Below are positions 44,723 through 48,587 of a DNA stretch of 64,000 nucleotides, piece after piece. Source of the DNA: Flammeovirgaceae bacterium (GTDB lineage: Bacteria; Bacteroidota; Bacteroidia; Cytophagales; Cyclobacteriaceae). Made by a program: the position numbers and the translations under genes. The notes under the pieces are model-generated. The model ran no database searches. It saw only the letters and a program-made list of their open reading frames with translations, and was not told the DNA's origin. Location: the NCBI GenBank assembly GCA_021298355.1, contig JAJTEH010000002.1, forward strand, positions 62,001 to 126,000, in the 5' to 3' direction. Numbering within the stretch: position 1 is the first letter of the stretch; every line of letters starts with the position of its first letter.

Positions 44723-47257
44723 CTACTTTTTCTTTTTTGCAGTTTTCTTCGCAGCTTTTTTAGCTACTTTCTTGGCTACTTTCTTAATTACTTTTTTAGT
44801 AGATTTTTTTGCCGAAGGTTTAGCCTTTGTTTTTTTAGTTACGGGCTTTGCCTTTGCTTTTTTAGCAACTTTCTTAGCTACCTTTTTAGCTGCTGGTTTT
44901 GCCTTCGCCTTACCTGCTTTTGCTTTTCCAGACTTTGCTACTTTCTTAGCTGCTGGCTTTGCTTTTGCAACTTTCTTGGCAGGCTTCTTCTCACCAGAAA
45001 ATTTCTTCGCCATTAGGTTAAGGGCCGATCCTGCTTTGAACCATTCTATCTGATTGGCATTGTACGTATGGTTAGCCAAAATCGTGTCTTTGCTGCCATC
45101 GCTGTGGTGCAATACAATTTCTAATGGTTTTTCAGGAGCAAACTTGGTTAAACCAACAATGTCGATTACATCATCTTCTTTAATCTTATCGTAATCTGCT
45201 TTGTTAGCGAAAGTTAATGCCAACATGCCTTGCTTCTTCAGGTTGGTTTCGTGTATGCGCGCAAATGATTTCACCAAAATAGCACGTACACCTAAATGGC
45301 GAGGTTCCATGGCAGCGTGTTCGCGGCTTGAGCCTTCTCCATAATTTTCATCTCCTACTACTATTGAACCTATACCTTGTGCTTTGTACGCACGTTGTAC
45401 TTTCGGTACTTCATCGTAGTTGTTGGTCAGTGTATTTTTTACACTATTAATTTTTTCATTAAAGAAGTTAGTAGCGCCAATTAACAAGTTGTTGGAAATG
45501 TTATCTAAATGGCCGCGGTATTTTAACCATTTACCAGCCATTGATATATGGTCGGTTGTACATTTTCCTTTTGCTTTGATGAGCAAACGCAAATCGGTTA
45601 AGTCAGTGCCTTCCCACGCTTTAAAGGGTTCTAATAATTGTAAACGATCGGAAGATGGACTTACAGATACTTTTATTTTGCTGCCATCTTTCGCAGGAGA
45701 TTGATAGCCCGGATCTTTTACATCGAATCCTTTTTTCGGTAACTCATCTCCGGTAGGTGGGTCTAACTTTACTTTTTCTCCTTTTTCGTTGGTTAAATAA
45801 TCTGTAATCGGGTTAAACGATAAATCTCCGGCAATTGCTAAAGCTGTAACCAATTCAGGCGAACCTACAAAAGCGTATGTGTTAGGATTTCCATCGTTAC
45901 GCGATTGGAAATTTCTATTGAAAGAATGAACGATGGTGTTTTTCTCTTTTTTCTCTGCGCCCATTCTATTCCACATACCAATACAAGGTCCGCAAGCATT
46001 AGCAAATACTTTCGCACCTATTTTATCGAAAGTTGCAATGAAGCCATCGCGCTCGATGGTGTAGCGAACCTGCTCAGAACCAGGTGTGATGGTAAATTCT
46101 GCTTTCGTCTTTAATCCTTTGTCTGCTACTTGTTTGGCTAAGCTGGCAGCGCGCGAAATATCTTCGTAAGAAGAGTTGGTACAAGAACCAATCAAACCTA
46201 CTTCAACTTTTGTGGGCCAACCATTTTTAGCTGCTTCTTCTTTTAGTTTAGAAAGTGGTGTTGCTAAATCCGGAGTGAAGGGTCCGTTTAAGTGTGGTTC
46301 TAAGGTTGATAAATTTATTTCGATAACCTGATCAAAGTATTTTTCAGGGCTAGCATATACTTCCGGATCGGCCGTTAAATGTTGTTTGATTTTGTTGGCC
46401 AACTTAGCCACTTCTGCGCGGCCGGTTGCAATCAAATATCTTTCCATCGATGCATCATAACCAAAAGTAGAAGTAGTTGCACCTATCTCTGCACCCATGT
46501 TACAGATGGTTCCTTTTCCTGTAGCACTCATAGAAGTAGCCCCTTCGCCAAAATATTCTACAATAGCGCCTGTTCCTCCTTTTACCGTAAGGATACCTGC
46601 AACCTTAAGGATAACGTCTTTAGCGGAAGTCCAACCGTTCAGTTTACCGGTAAGTTTTACGCCAATCAGTTTAGGGAATTTTAATTCCCACGCCATACCC
46701 GACATCACATCAACAGCATCAGCACCGCCAACACCAATGGCAATCATACCTAAACCACCGGCATTTACAGTGTGAGAATCTGTACCAATCATCATACCGC
46801 CCGGGAAAGCGTAGTTTTCTAACACTACCTGGTGAATGATACCGGCACCGGGCTTCCAGAAACCTATACCGTACTTATTGGATACGGAAGAAAGGAAGTC
46901 GAATACTTCTTTGCTTTCGTTATTGGCAATGGTTAAATCTTCTTTCGCTCCTGTTTTAGCCACGATCAGGTGGTCGCAATGTACGGTTGAAGGTACGGCT
47001 ACTTTTGGCCTGCCTGCCGACATAAATTGAAGCAAGGCCATCTGTGCAGTTGCATCTTGCATGGCTACGCGGTCGGGTGCAAAATCAACATAAGATTTAC
47101 CTCTGCCGAAGTTTTCTAGTTTTTGATCTCCGTGCAAGTGTGCGTATAATATTTTTTCCGATAGGGTAAGCGGTTTGCCTACTACTTTGCGTGCTTTAGC
47201 AATGCGGCCAGGCATGGCTGAATACAACGCTTTAATCATGTCTAAATCGAAAATCAT
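44723..47257 (-). CDS. aconitate hydratase with a histone-H1-like C-terminal tail
   Basis: An 844-residue protein. Residues 1 to about 750 form a complete aconitase of the mitochondrial-like class: [20 protein letters not shown], the iron-sulfur cysteines in [11 protein letters not shown] and [12 protein letters not shown], and GRGSSREH-like [17 protein letters not shown]. The enzyme isomerises citrate to isocitrate in the TCA cycle. After the normal end ([17 protein letters not shown]) come about 94 further residues of Lys/Ala/Pro repeats ([47 protein letters not shown]), encoded by 44726-45007. This tail resembles bacterial histone-H1-like or AlgP tails and is not part of the known aconitase fold. 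The frame is continuous. Confidence 0.95.
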
Positions 47258-47373: not shown

Positions 47374-48063
47374 TTATTTAGAATTGATGTAGTTGAGAAA
47401 TTCTCTTTTCACATTTATATCGTCTTTAAACTTACCCGAAAAATAGGCGGTTCCGGTTTTGCTGTTGGTATCGCTTACACCGCGCGATGCTACGCACATG
47501 TGGTTCGCATCCATCACCACAGCAACTGATTTGGTGTTGAGTATTTTTTCTAATTCCTGACCGATTTGCACTGTTAATCTTTCTTGCACTTGCGGGCGTT
47601 TCGAAAAATATTGAACGATGCGATTAATTTTAGAAAGACCAATTACTTTACCGCTGCTGAAATACGCAACATGTGCTTTGCCGTAAATAGGCACAAAGTG
47701 GTGCTCGCAATGCGAATAGAAAGTGATGTCTTTCTCCACCAACATTTGGTCGTAATTGTATTTGTTATCGAATAAACGCGCAATGGGTTTGTTCGCAGGG
47801 TTCAGTCCGCTGAAAGCTTCTTTCACAAACATTTTGGCTACGCGTCTGGGGGTTCCGGCAAGCGAATCATCATTCAGATCTAAACCAAGGGTTATCATGA
47901 TTTCTCTGAAATGATTTTCAATTTTATTGATTTTATCTTCGTCATTCATGTCGAATGCATCAGGTCGCATGGGCGTTTCTGCTGATGATGCAGCGTGATC
48001 GAAGTCATCATCATCGGCAGGCTTAAGCGGCCGGATATTCAACGAAATTTCTTTCTGTCTCAT
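47374..48063 (-). CDS. folE: GTP cyclohydrolase I
   Basis: FolE converts GTP to 7,8-dihydroneopterin triphosphate, the entry to folate and other pterins. The 229 residues include the zinc ligands in YSHCEHHFVPIYGKAHVAYF and VVMDANHMCVASRGV, and GLSKINRIVQYFSKRPQVQE. The first 35 residues are an acidic, poorly conserved extension that overlaps the upstream gene by 41 bases; starts at Met32 or Met39 (47949) are possible. The gene follows the PTPS homologue and is probably co-transcribed with it. Confidence 0.93.
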   Translation of the reverse strand: MRQKEISLNIRPLKPADDDDFDHAASSAETPMRPDAFDMNDEDKINKIENHFREIMITLGLDLNDDSLAGTPRRVAKMFVKEAFSGLNPANKPIARLFDNKYNYDQMLVEKDITFYSHCEHHFVPIYGKAHVAYFSSGKVIGLSKINRIVQYFSKRPQVQERLTVQIGQELEKILNTKSVAVVMDANHMCVASRGVSDTNSKTGTAYFSGKFKDDINVKREFLNYINSK

Positions 48064-48433
48064 AAAGTGTAATTTTCAATTCGTAACGGCTATCTATGTG
48101 TTGCCTCAAAATTCTCCAGATAACAACAGCAATGTTCTCGGCTGTAGGGTTGAGACTTTTAAAATGTTCTGTATCTAAATTTAAGTTTTTATGATCAAAT
48201 TTATTGAGAATATGTTCTTTAATTAAATCGCTCAGGATTTTCATATCGAAAACGTAACCTGTTGCAGGGTCGGTTTCTCCAATAACACTAACAATCATTT
48301 CGTAATTATGACCGTGATAGTTGGGGTTGTTACATTTACCGAAAACTTTTTCATTTTCCTCAGCCGACCACGCTGGGTTAAATAAGCGATGAGCTGCATT
48401 AAAATGTTCTTTCCGCGATACTTTAATCTTCAT
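48023..48433 (-). CDS. 6-pyruvoyl-tetrahydropterin synthase homologue (CX5HGH type)
   Basis: The ATG at 48433 (MKIKVSRKEHFNAAHRLF) is preferred over an in-frame TTG at 48457, giving 136 residues. Zinc ligands are His in FNAAHRLF and YHGHNYEM; the catalytic Cys is in GKCNNPNYHGH. The Cys-X5-HGH spacing matches eukaryotic PTPS (tetrahydrobiopterin type) rather than the Cys-X3-HGH of QueD. The substrate is the product of the neighbouring folE. Its 3' end overlaps folE. Confidence 0.9.
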   Translation of the reverse strand: MKIKVSRKEHFNAAHRLFNPAWSAEENEKVFGKCNNPNYHGHNYEMIVSVIGETDPATGYVFDMKILSDLIKEHILNKFDHKNLNLDTEHFKSLNPTAENIAVVIWRILRQHIDSRYELKITLYETERNFVEYPAA

Positions 48434-48587
48434 GTTGTTTTTAATAACAGTAATCAATCAGAATGGTTCAGGTTACGTGTAGAAAAAGTTACAGCAATTT
48501 AGGCTAAACTTAATTTGTGTTTTCCTTGTATTTTAACAAGCCAAGTATTTTATCATCTTTGACGCAAATTAATTGAATGTAAACCGG

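Follow-up and report, generated by a model that had tools for sequence, protein, structure and literature searches.

Several aconitases are described as having a second role on nucleic acids. Yeast Aco1 binds and protects mitochondrial DNA, and does so apart from catalysis (PMC7463775, PMC6124551; original work by Chen et al. 2005, 2007). E. coli AcnB (PMC4150767) and the mammalian cytosolic aconitase (PMC7463775) are RNA-binding apo-aconitases. Tails resembling histone H1 are known from other bacterial proteins: AlgP of Pseudomonas aeruginosa, described as binding DNA, ends in an H1-like domain made of KPAA repeats (PMC9239181). Among proteins with a chromatin-type domain, the Waddlia SWIB protein Wcw_0377, recovered by heparin chromatography, gave ChIP peaks genome-wide (PMC6426960). 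It is hard to test whether bacterial TCA enzymes act directly on DNA in the way reported for aconitase of yeast mitochondria. Here we describe an aconitase that carries an H1-like tail. The enzyme and this kind of tail are each known already; what is new is their repeated union, for which we found no report in the open-licence literature.

The window, i.e. the whole 64,000-nucleotide stretch of DNA analysed, holds a complete aconitase that runs in frame into a Lys/Ala-rich tail. The sequence-only reading had proposed exactly this arrangement, which one 844-residue open reading frame confirms, and had placed the tail at 44726-45007, right to one residue. The features are as follows.

44723 to 47257, minus strand: tailed aconitase gene, one open reading frame of 844 amino acids plus stop codon, with an ATG start
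45005 to 47257, minus strand: aconitase core, residues 1-751, assigned by profile match, structure-sequence match and conserved cysteines
44726 to 45004, minus strand: H1-like polycationic tail, residues 752-844, with 43 K, 23 A, 8 V, 5 P and 1 E among its 93 residues
44676 to 44702, minus strand: intrinsic-terminator-like hairpin a short way 3' of the stop codon, by consensus match only

By sequence comparison, the core is a complete mitochondrial-type aconitase. It scores 1153 bits against TIGR01340 (cut-off 825) over profile positions 1-745 of 745, and 1061 bits against pig mitochondrial aconitase 5ACN (754 aa), with query residues 14-750 matching residues 20-749 of the chain. The score for the AcnA family (TIGR01341) is 252 bits, below the cut-off of 945. 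C359, C422 and C425, which we take to be the ligands of the iron-sulfur cluster, are invariant across an alignment of 40 aconitases and align with the 5ACN cysteines; the core is presumably catalytically active. A search of the source genome (97% complete) with the whole protein returned one match at E up to 0.001, which makes this gene its sole aconitase match. Upstream on the same strand, window positions 47374-48457 contain two overlapping ORFs that by eye resemble GTP cyclohydrolase I and a relative of 6-pyruvoyl-tetrahydropterin synthase.

The tail belongs to no recognized domain: its last 99 residues taken alone match no Pfam family at E up to 1, and the whole protein gives two aconitase domains only, with no linker histone H1 or bacterial H1-like Pfam domain. 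It has the Lys/Ala-rich composition of H1-like proteins (43 K and 23 A of 93 residues) and, like them, is predicted to be disordered, with pLDDT values of 25-28 from residue 761 onward in an AlphaFold model. Because this model was built from 40 sequences and has a middling core (mean pLDDT 68), we drew only the disorder of the tail from it. Among 1697 ORFs of at least 80 amino acids in 1.21 Mb of the genome (window included), no end is more basic than the aconitase tail.

The tail is real and is no artefact of assembly or frameshift. The sequence-only reading had named a separate downstream H1-like gene in relatives as the sign of such an error. We looked for one in a set of 135 distinct loci that lack the tail, 0.79 Mb in total, of which 132 extend at least 300 bases and 126 at least 1000 bases downstream, and found none. 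When these loci were scanned for basic stretches of 40 residues, 12 rows resulted, of which a single one looked H1-like by eye. That candidate, a Lys-rich ORF in L228, was rejected because it is the shadow frame of a longer ORF that by eye resembles RNase Y. Complete tails are known from 51 separate records, and the tail is followed by the terminator-like hairpin (the consensus scan found three sites in the region versus 1.1 expected). An assembly or annotation error, or a frameshift that fused a separate H1-like gene to aconitase, thus has a negligible chance of explaining the tail.

Within the genus, the tail was present in each of the five genomes searched and extends 85-100 residues beyond position 751; its kind is kept there while its sequence and length drift, in agreement with the sequence-only reading. 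The family sample comprised 148 genomes, 146 of them with an aconitase match, and 18 of the 146 are tailed as read from the sequence, including one whose tail runs off its contig (G139) and one with a partial core (G047); for family genomes without a sequence read, the tail was judged from the length of the open frame, some frames being fragments. Tailed relatives that bear names (L059-L062) are metagenome genomes labelled Cyclobacteriaceae, Cytophagales or Bacteroidetes bacterium. In the aconitase frames read, extensions past the core were either at most 13 residues or both basic and long; none was long without being basic. At the level of the order, 229 of the 291 genomes sampled match aconitase at E up to 1e-150; among the matches listed (about 150 rows), all six frames above 800 aa outside the family lack a tail (G317, G162, G290, G253, G407 and G397). 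Long open frames in G562, G589, G662, G688 and G639, and in G698, G852, G881 and G920, were considered as tail candidates and discarded, the sequence showing no tail; G698 and G639 have ordinary frames but their matches extended past a stop. The tail had been called unusual, and so it is, although it is wider than one group and recurs in another class of the phylum. There, at least 31 genomes are tailed by sequence among 165 with an aconitase match (245 searched); two of the 31 tails are cut by contig ends, and the remaining rows were mostly judged without reading the sequence.

We compared the 51 complete basic tails retrieved, 22 of the family kind and 29 from the other class, to see what is conserved. 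They are 47-150 residues long, with a K+R content of 31-55% (mean 45%) and a D+E content that averages 1.8% and does not exceed 7.5%. Net charge per residue is 0.43 on average (sd 0.06, range 0.28-0.53) and has no trend with GC3 over the range 0.12-0.84 (rho –0.001). The share of Arg rises with GC3 (rho 0.38, P-value 0.006, nominal since the rows are related). Between the window tail and that of its nearest relative, 40 of 42 K/R residues are kept at a dN of 0.12 and a dS of 1.3, versus 0.007 and 0.53 for the core, so that change is much faster in the tail. Ten tail pairs were tried: dS was saturated in six, and dN/dS was 0.25-0.36 in three besides the window pair, on repeat alignments that are themselves unsure. 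The tail is conserved as charge, not as sequence. Spacing of the lysines differs between groups: the KKxxKK motif occurs 169 times in the 22 family tails versus 65 (sd 8.5) after shuffling, and 84 times in the 29 other-class tails versus 75 (sd 8.5), with no clear excess. Family and other-class tails have charge in common but not pattern.

Faster change than in the core, the presence of 12- and 24-base DNA repeats, and in-frame indels by which close relatives differ in tail length would all fit the view that AAG/GCT-like repeats have expanded, neutrally or selfishly, at the gene's 3' end. However, tails keep their charge whatever the GC content, GC-rich genomes using Arg in place of Lys and acidic residues staying rare, and the same kind of tail is found on different cores. 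Neutral decay would also bring stops soon: with 25% of the window-tail bases redrawn from a base composition that we set, a stop appeared in 94% of simulations and mean net charge was 0.25. We regard such an expansion as a very unlikely account of the tail.

A FastTree phylogeny was built from 177 distinct aconitase cores; 42 of its rows are tailed, and some of these represent one gene retrieved twice. The tree implies a minimum of four tail changes, each of them forced by starred branches. Clade I holds the window type (genera g1, g16, g18, g25 and g74), and clade II comprises g65, g84 and a single genome from g18 (G362). The other class makes up clades III and IV (families f39/f50 and f36); next to clade IV lie two f54 cores that have no tail. 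The family's cores are scattered over the tree, and the window type lies among cores of other Bacteroidota groups; such scatter points to probable repeated gene replacement. Two metagenome genomes labelled Leptospiraceae and Leptospirales (L096, L097) have aconitases within the Bacteroidota part of the tree, a placement due to either transfer or misbinned contigs.

The host phylogeny groups the tailed genomes differently. An rpoB tree was made for 50 genomes (55 chosen; 53 gave rpoB, G047 and G065 being the exceptions; G109 was split, and G033 and G125 were left out). In it, all 19 of 19 tailed family genomes form one clade on a long stem (support 100), and 24 untailed family genomes and seven genomes from other families lie outside. 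The two core types are mixed within this clade: g65 is placed by g1, g84 by g74 and g16, and G362 inside g18. Forcing both tailed core types together cost 140.7 log-likelihood units and was rejected (p-AU 9e–7), in a constraint test on 55 hand-picked rows of the 177 with a group named after the first tree was seen. Since the tail sits on two distant cores within one rpoB clade, it follows, in this sample, the host lineage and not one core. This pattern would imply that one lineage gained the tail twice, or gained it once and passed it from core to core by recombination; in addition, tailed genes would later have been transferred inside the clade.

Other proteins of the same genome carry similar arms. 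With the tail as query, the genome gave one further match, a weak one (E 6.8), to a 122-residue SWIB-domain protein (C37) with the N-terminal arm [14 protein letters not shown]. Our census of basic ends covered 1.21 Mb of 3.62 Mb (the 1697 ORFs, chance ORFs included) and listed 27. Arms that resemble the tail, picked by eye from these 27, are found on the SWIB protein (N-terminal), on a DksA/TraR zinc-finger protein (N-terminal) and, more weakly, on a SET protein (C-terminal end). The 27 also include ribosomal protein L20, an ORF matching Kdo/WaaP kinase, a protein that by eye is a ribosome-rescue factor, and ORFs of no assigned identity. The DksA/TraR-type gene (L318:11677-12450, 257 aa, C4 zinc finger) encodes a Lys/Ala/Pro-rich arm and has near it a second basic-ended ORF without a Pfam match (L318 10526-10951). 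The SET-domain gene (L334:9594-10580), Lys-rich at its C-terminal end, lies just downstream of a gene for an Rrf2-type-like regulator (by eye), on the same strand. Elsewhere in the genome, L337:16150-16608 is an ORF of repeated RWKILAP-like units that may be a non-coding tandem repeat.

SWIB is found in 17 of 146 genomes in the family sample, and 16 of these 17 have a tailed aconitase; G002 has both. The 17th, G065 (52% complete), has no aconitase match, and G097, G047 and G362 are tailed without SWIB. In the order sample, seven of 291 genomes score above the SWIB cut-off; G259 has a SWIB protein with a Lys-rich arm of the same kind and, judged by frame length, no tailed aconitase. Because SWIB and the tail fall on the same stem of the rpoB tree, their association counts as about one event. 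SWIB was also considered as a general cause of the tail, and this is ruled out by the other class, where it was found in none of 16 tailed genomes tested.

The occurrence of a polycationic tail on several distinct aconitases suggests that these enzymes are tethered to a polymer of negative charge, such as DNA or RNA. Our preferred explanation, which we think somewhat probable, is that the tail is a disordered polycationic tether that holds aconitase non-specifically to nucleic acid, most likely the nucleoid and possibly also RNA. A disordered polycation on a folded enzyme would hold that enzyme to a polyanion, the tail acting like the C-terminal domain of histone H1, here on a metabolic enzyme. 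The outcome would be a nucleoid-associated aconitase comparable to yeast Aco1, and it would affect the only aconitase found in the genome. Kept charge, recurrence on different cores, armed companions, the Aco1 precedent, the KKxxKK excess in the family and low tail pLDDT all speak for a tether; the other-class tails without such an excess, and the contrast in dN between tail (0.12) and core (0.007), count against it. We read the target as nucleic acid because of the armed SWIB, DksA/TraR and SET proteins in the genome and the Aco1 precedent, and the company of these proteins is suggestive in that direction. The argument from companions is weakened by its basis, one third of the genome and our own choice from 27 mixed ends, and by the SWIB data, which amount to about one event and include exceptions; a further point against our reading is that polycations bind any polyanion.

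The chief competing target is polyphosphate, or else some other polyanion. The tail may bind polyphosphate, the surface of storage granules or acidic membrane, so that aconitase would sit on a granule or at the cell periphery. AlgP, with its Lys/Pro/Ala-rich H1-like C-terminal domain, is reported on polyphosphate granules, where its C-terminus is needed for spacing (PMC9239181), and PHB granules of Herbaspirillum are reported to have carried an AcnA together with an Hc2-like histone (PMC3783465). The Lys-rich arms on SWIB, DksA/TraR zinc-finger and SET proteins in the genome point to nucleic acid instead, and we consider granule or membrane binding possible but rather improbable.

The tail might also serve the enzyme itself or its partners, by recruiting acidic TCA partners, attracting the tricarboxylate substrate or aiding solubility. 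Its host would suit such a role, being by sequence a complete and presumably active aconitase with the cluster cysteines and the sole match in a 97% complete genome. However, untailed relatives with cores 71-84% identical manage without a tail, and such service has no apparent need of 47-150 residues at about 45% K/R. Moreover, the only other enzyme noted among the 27 ends (1.21 Mb), the Kdo/WaaP-kinase match, is less basic and without Lys/Ala repeats. A service to the enzyme is in our view unlikely.

The nucleic-acid tether can be extended to a wider and doubtful reading, to which we give little credence: the SWIB protein, the SET methyltransferase, the DksA/TraR-type protein and their Lys-rich arms would form a chromatin-like kit, into which aconitase was drafted by the same kind of tail, and modification of tail lysines together with loss of the iron-sulfur cluster would set its amount on the chromosome. 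Nucleoid packaging, and perhaps DNA protection, would then be coupled to TCA, iron and oxidant state. The sequence-only reading had likewise suggested a nucleoid- or RNA-binding role that senses iron or oxidation; its nucleic-acid part coincides with our preferred explanation, whereas we treat the sensing as speculative. For the tether itself, a natural comparison is available in relatives with and without the tail and in distant tailed cores inside one host clade, and removal of a single disordered tail from one enzyme makes a direct test possible.

Yeast Aco1 is the closest analogue: it is likewise a mitochondrial aconitase, with a nucleoid role separable from catalysis, as we propose by analogy for the tailed enzyme. 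The two differ in that binding would come here from a long H1-like addition to the enzyme, the accessible parts of PMC7463775 and PMC6124551 mentioning none for yeast, and in that DNA binding is reported for the yeast protein and would be expected for ours. E. coli AcnB and the mammalian cytosolic aconitase share a second nucleic-acid role on aconitase, putative in our case, but they belong to other aconitase families, and they bind as apo forms or on losing the cluster, not through an added tail. Within the genome, the SWIB protein bears an arm of the [10 protein letters not shown] type that is very like the tail; however, this arm lies at the N-terminus and is joined to a chromatin-type domain instead of an enzyme, and for its Waddlia counterpart Wcw_0377 no arm is mentioned in the accessible part of PMC6426960. 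AlgP has in common with the aconitase tail a Lys/Ala/Pro-rich, predicted disordered, H1-like C-terminal domain. There, the domain consists of KPAA repeats and is tied to polyphosphate granule spacing, whereas here it is borne by aconitase, and KKxxKK spacing prevails in the family tails.
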